DNA of 64,000 nt from Thermanaerosceptrum fracticalcis (GTDB lineage: Bacteria > Bacillota > Peptococcia > DRI-13), in assembly GCF_000746025.2 (NCBI RefSeq), contig NZ_CP045798.1, positions 3,145,501 through 3,209,500 of the forward strand, written 5' to 3'. Every line of letters begins with the position of its first letter. The stretch's first letter is position 1. Position numbers and translations under genes: made by a program. Of the stretch, positions 27,287 to 40,230 are shown in pieces. The notes below the pieces were generated by a model that saw nothing but the letters and a program-made list of their open reading frames with translations, was not told the origin of the DNA and made no database searches.

Positions 27287-28253
27287 TTAGGCGATAAGAG
27301 GTTGTACTGACCCTGTGAATTGCCCTTTTGTAAAGGCCTTGTAAAACTCATTAGGAGCCATATACTTTATACCGCTATGTCTACGCCTATTGTTGTAGTA
27401 ATCAATATATTCACTAATAGTCCGATATACTTCCATAAAGCTGTCAAATTCATGGCGACTGTAGCATTCATCCTCTAGGATAGAGTGGAATGACTCTATA
27501 TAGGCATTCATATTAGGTGTTTTGACAGGAATTCTTTCATGCTCGATATTCCATTTATCACAAGTTTCCTTAAACAGTTTAGCAATGAATTGGGGCCCAT
27601 TGTCCGTTCTTATCACCGGCATTTTCACACCGGGAGTTAAGTTGCGTTTTTTAAGGGCATTTATAAGTACCCTGCAGGCATCCTTTGCTGTGGCGCTTAA
27701 TCCTACATGGTAACCTACTATTGATCTATCAAATACATCTATGGCTGAAAGTTGGAAGAAAAATTGACCGGTCCCGGCAATATAGCCATATTTTATATCC
27801 ATTTGCCAGAGCTGGTTAGGACCTGTTATTTTTTCTCGCTTAGCAAGCTTCTTAGGACGCTTGGGATATATTTTTCGTTGAGGACGTAAAATATCAAGTT
27901 CTTTGCAAAGCCGGTAAACTTTCTTATGGTTGATTATCAACTTATAATCTTCTTTCAAACAAATGCCAAGCTTTTTGTATCCATAGGGAAAACCATCGCG
28001 GTTATAAGCTCACAAAGTTATTCTTTGATAAGTTCATCCGGTATCTTTTCTCCCTTTTTGTTCAGTGAATAGCCTGGTATTTTACGTCCCGTCTGCTTTT
28101 TTGTTAATGCTTGTTCCTCTCTGCTTTCTTTTGTGATGTTGTAGTAATAGGTGGATGCAGCCAGACCGACAGAGTTGAGAACAGTAGTTGTATTGTATCC
28201 CTTTTCAATCCACCTCTTAGCAATGGCAACTCTGCCGGTTACCGAGGGTTTTT
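27287..28253 (-). pseudogene. IS3 transposase OrfB, interrupted
   Basis: The rve integrase core is intact in the last 223 codons: WQMDIKYGYIAGTGQFFFQL, then VIRTDNGPQF, and YIESFHSILEDE with the catalytic Glu. The N-terminal part lies in another frame and stops at a TAA near 28020, just before DGFPYGYKKLG; one stop and one frame change separate the halves. Without repair the protein lacks its helix-turn-helix half. The orfA-orfB junction is arranged for -1 frameshifting as in other IS3 members. Confidence 0.85.
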
Positions 28254-28550
28254 ACAATCCATCAAATCCTTTAGAATTGCCAATTGTAATTCTTTCTCGG
28301 CAAGAAGACGTTTTAGTCTATCATTTTCTGTACTTACTTCTTTAAGCTGTTTTTCCATGGCTTTGTACCGTTCTTCTTTTGCTTTGGGCAGAGGTTTTAC
28401 CGAACCTCTTTGGCGTTGTTTTTTCAGCCAGGTATGGATAGTAGTTGTTGCTATCTCATGCCTTCGGGCCACTAAGGCTACATTGCCTGTCTCCTGACAT
28501 TCTTTTAGAATTTGCTCTTTAAATTCATGACTGTACTGATTTTTTGTCAC
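28239..28550 (-). CDS. IS3 transposase OrfA
   Basis: A 103-residue protein: an N-terminal helix-turn-helix of the Tnp_8 type (YSHEFKEQILKECQETGN, then HEIATTTIHTWLKKQ) followed by a leucine-zipper coiled coil (about residues 60-95, LKEVSTENDRLKRLLAEKE). It binds the IS ends and normally fuses to OrfB by frameshifting. Open and full length, although its partner is broken. Confidence 0.88.
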   Translation of the reverse strand: MTKNQYSHEFKEQILKECQETGNVALVARRHEIATTTIHTWLKKQRQRGSVKPLPKAKEERYKAMEKQLKEVSTENDRLKRLLAEKELQLAILKDLMDCKNPR

Positions 28551-32454: not shown

Positions 32455-32656
32455 CAGAAAGAAATACGGAAAACATAACTAAAACTTTAGAGATAAGGTT
32501 CGATTTGGTAATTACTCTGGTGAGGACAGTCGTTCTCAAATATACGCATGATAAAAAATTGGTAAAATAAAAACAAAAGGAGGGTGATTGGTCACTTTCC
32601 TTTTGTTTTTATTTTCTTCCATATTTCGGGAATTAATCTTTATATGAAAAGGCTTA

Positions 32657-32710
32657 ATACTGTATACATCGTCGGAATACTGTATACATGTCTGTTATAC
32701 AGTATACATG
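32657..32710 (+). promoter_or_regulatory. Three evenly spaced GTATAC operator-like palindromes
   Basis: GTATAC occurs at 32662, 32682 and 32702, exactly 20 bases apart. The first two lie in ATACTGTATACAT and the third in ATACAGTATACAT. The GT-AT-AC core fits the loose GntR-family operator pattern. A further inverted repeat, TTCTGT-N6-ACAGAA, follows near 32719. The group lies about 130 bases before the glutamate synthase-like gene, with no other gene in the 443-base gap. Confidence 0.65.
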
Positions 32711-32837
32711 TTTTCGTATTCTGTACTTTAACAGAAATGTATTATAAAATAACAGCTATAAGAATGTTATGAATATAAAAGTTTACCAATAAGCATTAAT
32801 AATATATACACAATGATGTGTTTAGGAGGGGAAAATC

Positions 32838-34478
32838 ATGAATCAATATCCCAAAACAAATGATGTTTTAGGTACAGTGAACAGAGGAGATGCTGCAGAA
32901 TCGGGATTATGTACTCTTTGCAGGGCTGATTGTCAAGGAAAGTGCGAAACCTGGTTAACCAGCATGATTGGGAGAAAAATGCTGTATCCCCGGGACTTTG
33001 GCATAGTTACGGCGGGGAGTAGAAACACAACCCATGTGGGAGTGTCTTATAATTCCCTAAGAATCCAGGGATATAATTATGGGGCGGCAGGTTTGCCGAA
33101 AGGAATTTCCAATTCGGCCGATGACTGTATTTTTCCCAATGTGAATATCGAAACGGAATTTGGCAACGAAGTCAAAACAAAATCCAGGATTCCCATCATG
33201 ACAGGGGCTCTTGGATCCACTTTCATCGCCGCAAAATACTGGGATGCCTTTGCTACCGGCGCAGCTCTGGTAGGATTCCCTATCGTTATAGGCGAAAACG
33301 TGGTAGGCGTGGATAAGGAAGCGGTTATTGAAAACGGAAAAATAGTGAAAGCTCCGGAACTGGACAGGAGAATCGAGACTTATCTGCGTTATTATGACGG
33401 CTATGGCGCTATCATTGTGCAGATGAATGTGGAAGACACCAGAAACGGCGTGGCCGAGTATGTTATTGATAAATACGGCGATAAGGTCGTTATTGAACTC
33501 AAGTGGGGACAAGGGGCCAAAAACATTGGCGGAGAAATACAGGTAACAAGCCTGGACTATGCCTTATTCCTGAAAAATAGGGGTTATGTGGTTGATCCCG
33601 ATCCCACCAAGCCCGCGGTTCAGGAAGCCTTTAAGAACGGAGCCATCAAATCTTTTGCCCGCCACAGCAGACTGGGATATACTGACTTATCCTCACCTGA
33701 GCAAGTCAGAGAGAACTTTATGAGCTCTGTGGAGTATTTAAGGAAAATCGGTTATAAACGGATATCTTTAAAAACCGGTTCCTATGGCATGGAAGCTCTG
33801 GCTATGGCCATGAAGTATGCTACCGATGCCAAGCTTGACCTCTTAACGATAGACGGTTCCGGTGGCGGTACAGGAATGAGCCCCTGGAATATGATGGAGA
33901 CATGGGGAGTTCCTTCGATTTTACTTCATGCCAAGGCCTATGAATATGCCACCATACTGGCGGCAAAGGGCAATAAGGTTGTAGACCTGGCCTTTGGCGG
34001 CGGGTTAGCTCGCGAAGACCATATCTTTAAAGCCTTAGCGCTGGGAGCGCCCTTTACAAAACTTGTCTGTATGGGAAGAGCTGTCATGATTCCCGGGTTC
34101 CTGGGTGCAAATATAGAAGGCGTACTGAAACCTGAGAGAAAAGCGCTGGTCAATGGTAACTGGGATAAACTGCCCGCCGCTGTAACACAAGTTGGTGCTA
34201 CTGCAGAAGAAATCTTTGCGGGTTACTATGATGTACAGAATAAAGTGGGTAAAGATGAAATGAAAAATATACCCCTGGGTGCAATAGCTATGTGGAACTT
34301 GGCTGATAAACTGGCGGCCGGTCTCCAGCAGTTAATGGCCGGTGCCCGGAAGTTCTCCCTGAAAGAAATATCCCGTGATGACTTAGTGGCTGGCAATCGT
34401 GAAACAGAAAGAGAAACTAATATTAAATACATTACTGATGCTTTAGACGAAAGTGCCAAGAAGATTCTAAATTCCTAA
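32838..34478 (+). CDS. FMN-binding glutamate synthase-like protein
   Basis: A 546-residue stand-alone protein with the FMN/ammonia-transfer barrel of glutamate synthase, without the glutaminase domain. Key segments are KTKSRIPIMTGALGS near residue 115, IELKWGQGAKNIGGEIQV near 220, DGSGGGTGMSPWNMME near 345 and LAFGGGLAREDHIFKALALGA near 385. An N-terminal cysteine group, CTLCRADCQGKC (residues 26-37), may hold an iron-sulfur cluster. Members often occur without the small GOGAT subunit, and the true reaction may differ. It sits alone behind the GTATAC operators with GGAGGGG before the ATG. Confidence 0.88.
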   Translation: MNQYPKTNDVLGTVNRGDAAESGLCTLCRADCQGKCETWLTSMIGRKMLYPRDFGIVTAGSRNTTHVGVSYNSLRIQGYNYGAAGLPKGISNSADDCIFPNVNIETEFGNEVKTKSRIPIMTGALGSTFIAAKYWDAFATGAALVGFPIVIGENVVGVDKEAVIENGKIVKAPELDRRIETYLRYYDGYGAIIVQMNVEDTRNGVAEYVIDKYGDKVVIELKWGQGAKNIGGEIQVTSLDYALFLKNRGYVVDPDPTKPAVQEAFKNGAIKSFARHSRLGYTDLSSPEQVRENFMSSVEYLRKIGYKRISLKTGSYGMEALAMAMKYATDAKLDLLTIDGSGGGTGMSPWNMMETWGVPSILLHAKAYEYATILAAKGNKVVDLAFGGGLAREDHIFKALALGAPFTKLVCMGRAVMIPGFLGANIEGVLKPERKALVNGNWDKLPAAVTQVGATAEEIFAGYYDVQNKVGKDEMKNIPLGAIAMWNLADKLAAGLQQLMAGARKFSLKEISRDDLVAGNRETERETNIKYITDALDESAKKILNS

Positions 34479-34599: not shown

Positions 34600-34676
34600 G
34601 GTCGGGATGACAGGACTTGAACCTGCGACCTCTTGGTCCCGAACCAAGCGCGCTACCAAACTGCGCTACATCCCGT
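34600..34676 (-). tRNA. tRNA-Pro (anticodon CGG)
   Basis: Folds as a 77-base cloverleaf. The acceptor CGGGATG pairs with CATCCCG, the discriminator is A and CCA is encoded. The anticodon arm is CTTGG-TTCGGGA-CCAAG, giving CGG, which reads CCG. The T arm has GGTTCAAGTCC. It is on the minus strand between two plus-strand genes, with its own promoter and terminator. Confidence 0.97.
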
Positions 34677-36408: not shown

Positions 36409-36960
36409 ATGAACAAGCGACAAGAAAGGGATCAAAGGTATCTGGAAGCTTATGAAGAGATAACCTTGGTCCTCCGCCGTTGCAAGGAGAAATATGGTCT
36501 AACGGGGGAAGAAAATCACCCCCAGGCTCTCCGCTTTAAAACACTGGAAGAAAAGCTGACAACGGAGAGGCGCCTTTTAGAGGAAGTCAGTCTACCTTGC
36601 CGTTTTATCTTGGAGCATTTTTCTACCTTTATGGGTAAGCCCGACCATACTATTGGTTTTCGTCTCGGCCAACTGGAAGTTGGACGGGGCATCCTCAATG
36701 ATTTTTCCATCAATGAATGGGGAAATGTCTATTTAATTATCGGCAATATACGCTTGGCCTGGCGAGATAAGGATTATCAGTATCTGTTTTATCCCGATAA
36801 GGTGATTATGCGGTCATGTGACCGGAGTAAACCGGAAATTCATCTGTTCTTCAACTTTGCCTTTAAATATTCCAAGCTTTTAGAGGATTTCGCCGAAATT
36901 GCCAGTGATTCTCAAACACTGTATTGTCACCCGGATTTATTTGAAGGAAAAGAAGAGTAA
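36409..36960 (+). CDS. Conserved-looking protein of unknown function
   Basis: A 183-residue soluble protein. The N-terminal helices are rich in Arg/Lys/Glu (ERDQRYLEAYEEITLVLRRC; residues 40-60 coiled-coil-like). A beta-rich centre follows (GNVYLIIGNIRLAWRDKDYQ, then LFYPDKVIMRSCD), and then a helical end. A very good AAGGAGGGTGG ribosome site and a terminator frame it as a single-gene unit. I do not recognise the family. Confidence 0.7.
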   Translation: MNKRQERDQRYLEAYEEITLVLRRCKEKYGLTGEENHPQALRFKTLEEKLTTERRLLEEVSLPCRFILEHFSTFMGKPDHTIGFRLGQLEVGRGILNDFSINEWGNVYLIIGNIRLAWRDKDYQYLFYPDKVIMRSCDRSKPEIHLFFNFAFKYSKLLEDFAEIASDSQTLYCHPDLFEGKEE

Positions 36961-38904: not shown

Positions 38905-40230
38905 ATGAAAGGCGAAGCCTTGGGGAGTAGCCTCACGAAACATGAACAAATTATCAGATTCATCAAAAATTTAGAAGTAGGTACGAAAGTTTCGGTACGC
39001 CAGATCGCCAAAGAACTGGATGTTAGTGAAGGAACAGCTTACCGGGCTATTAAAGAAGCTGAAGCCCAGGGACTGGTAAGTTCAATTCCCAAAGTGGGAA
39101 CAATCCGTATAGAGGCCGAGGAGCAACGGGAAATTGAAGATTTAACCTTAAGGGAAATCTCCCTCATTGTGGAAGGGGAAGTACTGTGCAGTACTGAACG
39201 TTTAGGATTAGCTCCCTCCCGTTTTGTTATTGGCTGTAACAGTATTGGCATACTGGAACAACTGTTAGAGAAGGATGCCCTGCTGATTGTCGGAGACGTA
39301 CCTGAGTTCCAGCGTATTGCCCTGGAGAAGGGTTCCCACCTTATGGTGGCCGGGGCCTTTAAAGTATCAAAAGAACTCATTAAGCTTGCCCAGGAAAATA
39401 ACCTGGTAATTATTTCTTGTCCTTATGATACTTTTGTGGCCGTCTCCATGATGAACAGGGCGGTTTACGACCGTTTAACGGAAAAAGAACTGGTCCGTGT
39501 GGAAGACATCATGGTCAGGGATGTTTTTTATCTGACTTCCGAAGCCACAGTGGAACAATGGCATGAAATGGCCCAGAAAACCGGCCACAGCCGCTTCCCT
39601 GTTGTGGACCAGAACATGCTGGTCATCGGTATTGTTACCGCCGTTGATGTGGCGGGTATTGATAGGACTGCCAGTGTTTTATCGGTCATGACCAAAGATG
39701 TTCTCATTGCTGAGAGACAGACTCTGGTTACCCATTTAGCCCGTCTTTTAATCTGGGAAGGTTTTGAACTGGTGCCTATTGTGGAAGAGGGGCGCCTGGT
39801 GGGGGTCGTGAGCCGTCAGGATATTTTAAAGGCCTTCCAGCAAACCCAAAAACAGCCCCATGTTGGAGAAACCGTGGACAACCTGGTGATGAGCGGTTTT
39901 ACCTTGGATGAATGGGATGAAGGGACGAAAATATCCGGTGAGATTACCCAGTTCATGATTAACGAATTTGGTTCTGCCAGTCCCGGCACTTTGGTTACCA
40001 TTATGTCCACGGCCACCTATATTGCCTTGCGTAAACAGCTGCGGCTGGATACGGTCCTGGATAATTTAACCCTTTACCACATGGACCCGGTAGAGGTGGG
40101 GGATTTTGTGGAAGTTTACACCAGGGTGATCCATATTGAGAAAAAGTCATGTGTTACTGATGTCAGTATCTACTGTGAAGGAAAACTGAAGGCCAAAGGA
40201 ATCCTCAGTTCGCGCATCATTAAAAAATAA
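38905..40230 (+). CDS. DRTGG-CBS-HotDog transcription factor, SpxR/YtoI type
   Basis: A 441-residue cytoplasmic regulator. An N-terminal winged helix-turn-helix (EQIIRFIKNLEVGTKVSVRQ, then EGTAYRAIKEAEAQGLV; residues 10-65) is followed by a DRTGG domain (about 75-185), two CBS motifs (about 195-310) that probably bind a nucleotide, and a HotDog domain (about 325-435). This order is that of Bacillus YtoI and Streptococcus SpxR. The position just upstream of dnaE is also seen in Bacillus. Target genes are unknown here. Confidence 0.9.
   Translation: MKGEALGSSLTKHEQIIRFIKNLEVGTKVSVRQIAKELDVSEGTAYRAIKEAEAQGLVSSIPKVGTIRIEAEEQREIEDLTLREISLIVEGEVLCSTERLGLAPSRFVIGCNSIGILEQLLEKDALLIVGDVPEFQRIALEKGSHLMVAGAFKVSKELIKLAQENNLVIISCPYDTFVAVSMMNRAVYDRLTEKELVRVEDIMVRDVFYLTSEATVEQWHEMAQKTGHSRFPVVDQNMLVIGIVTAVDVAGIDRTASVLSVMTKDVLIAERQTLVTHLARLLIWEGFELVPIVEEGRLVGVVSRQDILKAFQQTQKQPHVGETVDNLVMSGFTLDEWDEGTKISGEITQFMINEFGSASPGTLVTIMSTATYIALRKQLRLDTVLDNLTLYHMDPVEVGDFVEVYTRVIHIEKKSCVTDVSIYCEGKLKAKGILSSRIIKK

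Follow-up and report, generated by a model that had tools for sequence, protein, structure and literature searches.

Upstream of a glutamate synthase-like gene in the genome of Thermanaerosceptrum fracticalcis, three copies of the palindrome GTATAC form what the analysis described here supports as a real and conserved regulatory array with a fixed 20-bp phasing. The array appears, from the sequences compared, to be one promoter of a conserved glutamate regulon, the element not being specific to the gene behind it in the window (the whole 64,000-nucleotide stretch of DNA that was analysed). The best explanation is that the copies are operators through which a GntR protein of the FadR/FCD type, for the arrays a member of the group designated GntR1/GntR3, controls the formation of glutamate, a reading to which we assign a probability of roughly 0.6.

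A first-pass annotation of the window had claimed a spacing of exactly 20 bp, and the copies do start at 32662, 32682 and 32702. The array and its surroundings comprise the following features.

32567..32612, plus strand: terminator-like hairpin, parting the array promoter from the upstream gene
32656..32668, minus strand: candidate operator unit 1, TGTATACAGTATT, with GTATAC at 32662-32667
32676..32688, minus strand: candidate operator unit 2, TGTATACAGTATT, with GTATAC at 32682-32687
32696..32708, minus strand: candidate operator unit 3, TGTATACTGTATA, with GTATAC at 32702-32707, differing from TGTATACARTATW by one base
32721..32734, plus strand: degenerate fourth element CTGTACTTTAACAG with the half-copy CTGTAC inside, keeping the 20-bp register (by eye)
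32745..32750, plus strand: putative -10 element TAAAAT, matched by eye to TAAGAT/TAATAT/TATTAT in the promoters of orthologues
32838..34478, plus strand: gltX (the name used here), a glutamate synthase-like FMN-domain protein of 546 aa, the presumed regulated gene
34602-34675, minus strand: tRNA downstream of gltX

In the window sequence the two upstream copies read AATACTGTATACAT and the third TATACAGTATACAT; the longer form given in the first-pass annotation, ACTGTATACA, matches two of the three sites, the third differing from it. The fourth element is kept, by eye, before the gltX orthologues of five genomes (G002, G003, G004, G005 and G009) and is weaker in G010. The gltX promoters of the same order also have in common, farther downstream, the block CTGTACWWTAACAG, and at a fixed distance behind it come the -10-like sequences TAAGAT/TAATAT/TAAAAT. 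A generic promoter scan found no plus-strand promoter at the putative -10 TAAAAT upstream of gltX, so the proposed element derives from the alignment. With the -10 placed there, the sites stand at roughly -52, -72 and -92. The array lies some 40-80 bp before the predicted -10, which makes activation possible as well as repression. The gene behind the array is glutamate synthase-like, as had been annotated (PF01645, 65.5 bits in Pfam), and a comparison with NCBIfam returned no close equivalog for its product. It looks like a single-gene transcription unit by position, since the hairpin precedes it and the minus-strand tRNA comes after; that tRNA is the only Rfam match between 32380 and 34900, the gltX leader included.

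It had also been remarked that no regulator gene is adjacent, and this holds, the nearest regulator-like gene seen being an SpxR-like one at 38905-40230 with an HTH-DRTGG-CBS-hotdog architecture; among the open reading frames between 26000 and 40000 no FCD-GntR gene was seen near gltX. Two further occupants of the neighbourhood may be recorded. The frame at 36409-36960 encodes a 183-residue protein with no match in Pfam or NCBIfam, whose homologues (70-78% identical) lie near sites or glutamate dehydrogenase in G002, G005, G009 and G012, with a 56% fragment in G029. About 4 kb ahead of the array, IS3-type transposase frames occupy the minus strand at 27287-28550 (by eye).

Such an arrangement lies far outside chance expectation. 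If GTATAC occurred at its shuffled density (1.26e-4 per base), 64 kb should contain about 0.001 exact-20 pairs and 1e-7 triples. For the whole genome (G000; 3.8 Mb, a single contig) the expectation is 0.06 pairs, and it holds three exact-20 pairs at two promoters against none in the reversed control. The second promoter carries its pair at G000:C1:215625 and 215645, plus a third GTATAC at 215598, and lies 130-180 bp before a class-II glutamine amidotransferase operon. Behind the amidotransferase gene follow genes for a ferredoxin-type glutamate synthase subunit, a ferredoxin, an NADH oxidoreductase-like protein and a GXGXG-type subunit (the first two genes assigned by family match, the rest by eye), with a convergent glutamine synthetase gene behind the operon. 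This operon encodes a split glutamate synthase (GOGAT). Searched with two mismatches, AATACWGTATACAT is not enriched in the same genome (74 against 63 strand hits), and the regulon is therefore defined by the TGTATACARTATW form and not by the loose one. Perfect TGTATACA sites of this genome, among those whose surroundings were read, lie in many cases within genes, where they are probably due to chance; they also precede genes for an AGCS symporter, a pyruvate/oxaloacetate carboxylase subunit and an N-acetylglutamate synthase-like protein.

Orthologous promoters, to which the first-pass annotation had pointed as a check, were found to keep the phased sites. Forty relatives were queried with the gltX and GOGAT amidotransferase proteins, and 46 class genomes were searched for the exact pair. 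GTATAC-N14-GTATAC was found at 17 places in 12 of them, against 3 places for the reversed control. Of the 17 pairs, 16 stand 90-190 bp before gltX orthologues or the GOGAT amidotransferase gene, the exception being in G017. Across 22 promoters, that of the window included, the interval between neighbouring GTATAC copies is 20 bp in 16 of 26 cases, the remainder being 27 (five), 19 (two), 21, 37 and 40 bp. A set of 80 gltX loci from named database records was grouped by us according to the record names: GTATAC stands within 350 bp upstream of gltX in 16 of 28 loci named as Clostridia/Firmicutes (shuffled mean 1.8, maximum 5, in 200 rounds) and in 1 of 52 loci with other names (shuffled mean 2.4). 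As control stretches at the same 28 loci, the region 350-700 bp upstream contains GTATAC in five and gltX itself in one. Loci with the palindrome include those of Moorella, Desulfosporosinus, Sporomusa and Pelosinus; those of Thermoanaerobacter and Pelotomaculum are without it. In a phylum-wide draw of 398 genomes, GTATACN14GTATACAWT occurs at five places, three of them GOGAT promoters, while the fourth precedes a pyruvate/oxaloacetate carboxylase subunit gene by 149 bp (G133) and the fifth a diaminopimelate epimerase gene by about 76 bp (G269, by eye). Computation alone establishes the array, its phasing and its conservation, and also the shared gene set described below.

Class relatives can look otherwise at these loci. 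By eye, two of those without the array (G026 and G028, loci L178 and L180) show, ahead of the GOGAT amidotransferase gene, a hairpin with a T-run that resembles a terminator/antiterminator leader, and other genomes of the class have ANTAR-type response regulators near glutamine synthetase.

The 56 aligned sites read TGTATACARTAT(A/T). The unit points toward the gene at GOGAT and away from it at most gltX promoters, its asymmetry being in part imposed because orientation was assigned by the best fit to the tail. Its position relative to the promoter varies between genes, so that no one mode of action stands out: the site overlaps the presumed -10 only at citrate-synthase-type promoters, and before the citrate synthase gene of G010 GTATAC is the centre of a 26-bp palindrome.

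The wider unit, TGTATACARTATW, was searched in a selection of 26 genomes (12 lacking arrays, 14 that have known sites or stand near genomes that do), and the surroundings of all 71 places found (against 16 for the reversed pattern) were read. Nine precede gltX, seven GOGAT and ten glutamate dehydrogenase, which together make up 26 of the 71. The gltX and GOGAT places helped to derive the pattern; the other 55 are independent of its derivation, and it is among these that the ten glutamate dehydrogenase places fall, in nine genomes including the one under study. The enzymes concerned show 32-98% homology to the dehydrogenase of this genome, itself assigned to PF00208/PF02812, and a site behind a glutamate dehydrogenase-like gene in G031 was left out of the count. 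Four of the 55 precede genes for citrate synthase (G010), aconitase (G025) or a homocitrate-synthase-type protein followed by aconitase (G030 and G034). Six stand before amino-acid biosynthesis genes, namely a diaminopimelate epimerase, two diaminopimelate dehydrogenases (the second, in L397, named by eye), two class I/II aminotransferases and an EPSP synthase, and four before amino-acid uptake genes (that of L432 by eye). About ten places precede short open reading frames, 4 of the 71 lie inside open reading frames, and the remainder stand before assorted or unidentified genes. Such a regulon was not found in the literature searched, though a published description may have been missed; as far as could be checked, the glutamate regulon is new and the kind of system is known.

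Some of the short frames resemble one another. In four genomes (G000, G001, G003 and G004), frames of 31-35 residues, each with a ribosome site, begin 80-87 bp downstream of a TGTATACARTATW site (G000:C1:3624743-3625115, which is L145 5743-6120; L409; L385/L443; L415). Their products end in ...LAEMERCLGAEH, ...FEGCLMAEH or ...TERALTSEY and have no Pfam match above the cut-off; they are possibly small proteins of the same regulon. Two more families, of 35-42 residues, occur near sites, one ending in KKTPCSSWGE/NYPCSCWGE/KKTPASIW (L381 in G001, L388 in G002, L421 in G031) and the other containing FVNSPEYLMLSS(E/K)ER (L395 in G031, L417 in G038).

As to the protein that would bind these sites, the first-pass annotation had named a GntR-type repressor as a possibility, and a GntR-type protein is indeed the class of candidate that fits best. 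The core of all three sites, GT-AT-AC in A+T-rich surroundings, suits an operator of the FadR/FCD type. The genome encodes three such candidates, each with a GntR and an FCD domain (PF00392+PF07729), and all three keep the Glu, Arg, Thr and Arg at the DNA-contact positions of the FCD-GntR protein Atu1419. We consider it likely that the regulator of the gltX array is an FCD-GntR protein. GntR2 is the last gene of an operon at G000:C1:3613695-3618741, behind a homocitrate synthase-type gene (TIGR02660, above the cut-off), aconitase and an isocitrate dehydrogenase-like gene; in view of these neighbours the first gene probably encodes a Re-citrate synthase. GntR1 is convergent to GntR2 in this genome and in G003, G004 and G005, and stands two genes behind gltX only in G002 and G009; GntR3 lies behind an ispE-like gene (by eye). 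No GTATAC occurs within 300 bp upstream of the GntR1, GntR3 and GntR2 genes tested, with one exception.

Within this class the GntR1/GntR3 group appears to fit better than GntR2 alone. A GntR1 query gave E <1e-55 in 40 of 45 genomes, all the site-rich ones among them and also family f7, in which TGTATACARTATW is no more frequent than the control pattern (2 places across four genomes). The GntR proteins of f7 read [AEM]VSRTPVREAVRKL and PRKGTYV, and those of the others GVSRTPVREA(I/L)RKL and mostly PRKGA(Y/F)V, the differences lying at and beside the recognition helix and wing; this is weakly suggestive of a role for the GntR1/GntR3 group. That the same array and regulon answer to GntR2 alone, as an autoregulated repressor, we regard as distinctly unlikely. 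In the promoter of the GntR2 operon a site does stand at -81 from the start codon, and a 22-bp near-palindrome, GTATTATTGTATACAATGATAC, which is perfect in G004, lies at -35, over the presumed -10. GntR2 or a relative of 42-49% lies in, beside or near aconitase in seven genomes (G000, G002, G004, G006, G017, G023 and G026), with a site 34 bp before GntR2 in G006. Yet orthologues of at least 65% identity are present in 8 of 46 genomes, and site-bearing genomes lack one, namely G029, G031 and G038, which carry the GOGAT array, and G001, G010, G012, G008 and G035, where the assembly of G001 is 80% complete and the contig of G010 ends beside GntR1. Because several site-bearing genomes lack it, GntR2 as sole regulator was ranked lower.

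A regulator of another family acting on the same array and regulon, such as an Lrp/AsnC, IclR or LysR/GltC-like protein or the SpxR-like CBS protein, is an unlikely alternative with several scattered neighbours in its favour. At four Moorella-type loci (L040, L057, L058 and L099) gltX lies, by eye, between two IclR-family genes and not GntR genes, and IclR genes precede the homocitrate-synthase-type gene in G029, G031 and G038. The SpxR-like gene has a homologue near gltX in G031 (L214), and in G029 (L438) one lies 0.7 kb behind glutamate dehydrogenase; Lrp-type genes (by eye) stand near aconitase in G002 and near an aminotransferase in G035. All such readings face the fact that the array core is a GntR-type core, and IclR in particular was set back when a query found no match in G008 or G012, both of which have the glutamate dehydrogenase site. 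A reading of the sites as chance clustering or as a structural feature of the DNA, with no dedicated regulator, would draw on the palindromic, A+T-rich nature of GTATAC and on the often intragenic single TGTATACA sites of this genome, but the conservation of the sites, their fixed spacing and the gene set common to them all oppose it, and its probability is next to nil.

The motifs of several known regulators were sought in the window and set aside. Matches to the GlnR/TnrA consensus TGTNA-N7-TNACA (two) and to the CodY box consensus AATTTTCWGAAAATT with up to 3 mismatches (four) are nowhere near the array, and none of the 21 matches to the ArgR box consensus WNTGAATWWWWATTCANW, again with up to 3 mismatches, falls at 32650-32740. 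The BusR motif GAC-N22-GTC of a c-di-AMP (BusR-type) regulator has six matches, none near the array; a BusR-like gene (GntR + TrkA-C; L434 2263-2904, in G035) with a TGTATACAGTATT site 145 bp upstream would therefore be at most a target.

Under the preferred reading, a transcription factor of the GntR1/GntR3 group would control glutamate formation in this group of anaerobic Firmicutes through the three sites. For its identity, its cooperativity, its effector and the sign of its control, what follows is what we infer from the patterns above. One protein dimer would occupy each 20-bp unit (TGTATACARTATW plus spacer), and a phasing of about two turns would bring neighbouring dimers onto one face of the DNA, touching or forming one tetramer; two units would be the common minimum, the window having three. 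The regulator may match the supply of 2-oxoglutarate and the assimilation of ammonium to need, because the element precedes GOGAT, glutamate dehydrogenase, the homocitrate/Re-citrate synthase-aconitase-isocitrate dehydrogenase operon and amino-acid genes. GntR2, a relative of GntR1/GntR3, would act on its own operon through the palindrome over the -10. At the gltX and GOGAT arrays, upstream of the -10, a contact with RNA polymerase and a nucleoprotein block are both possible, and at citrate-synthase-type operons, with a palindrome over the presumed -10, repression would be the simpler reading. The effector could perhaps be a carboxylate such as 2-oxoglutarate, citrate or glutamate, carboxylates being plausible effectors of FCD proteins. 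A bolder proposal, which we hold to be doubtful, is that of a so far unnamed FCD-GntR master regulator of glutamate in anaerobic Firmicutes which would use the 20-bp spacing of tandem operators as a ruler. It would govern the 2-oxoglutarate branch together with GOGAT and glutamate dehydrogenase, and drive the several families of 31-42-residue proteins as well; its control could be by activation or repression, and the small proteins could tune those enzymes directly.

The control of glutamate supply in Bacillus is well mapped, with GltC, TnrA and CodY as its regulators. In acetogenic and syntrophic Clostridia-like groups it is hardly mapped, as far as the literature searched shows. One easily recognisable element now joins the two glutamate synthases and glutamate dehydrogenase with the 2-oxoglutarate branch in a testable regulon, and yields a short list of candidate regulators together with a natural test of distance-measuring DNA recognition.

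Several known systems share part of this design. GltC of Bacillus subtilis, of the LysR family, regulates the genes for glutamate synthase through several boxes spaced by roughly two turns, the box sequence differing from the array unit. Atu1419 of Agrobacterium fabrum, an FCD-GntR protein of the VanR group, has been solved with ATGTATACAT and is described as binding it through Glu34, Arg45, Thr46 and Arg49 and as a tetramer able to hold two operators (PMC7797058). Its operator core has the same eight letters as the array core; its operators, however, lie 109-190 bp apart and act by looping, whereas the window sites are tandem and 20 bp apart, and its targets are genes of hydroxycinnamate catabolism (PMC7797058). 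FadR-subfamily motifs, according to a survey that analysed one regulator of the subfamily from Clostridia, are palindromes with GT and AC 2-3 nt apart (two bases in several groups, as in the array core) and TKGT/ACMA boxes; a weaker extra half-site 7-12 nt away is common and would explain the RTATW tail (PMC4494728). Phased two- or three-site arrays like that of the window are not described in the sections of the survey consulted here (PMC4494728). BusR is a tetrameric GntR protein with a fixed-distance bipartite operator, GAC-N22-GTC, and, like the regulator proposed here, one that measures distance along the DNA, although that motif is absent at 32650-32740 and its ruler spans three turns of the helix as against two in the array (PMC8517857).
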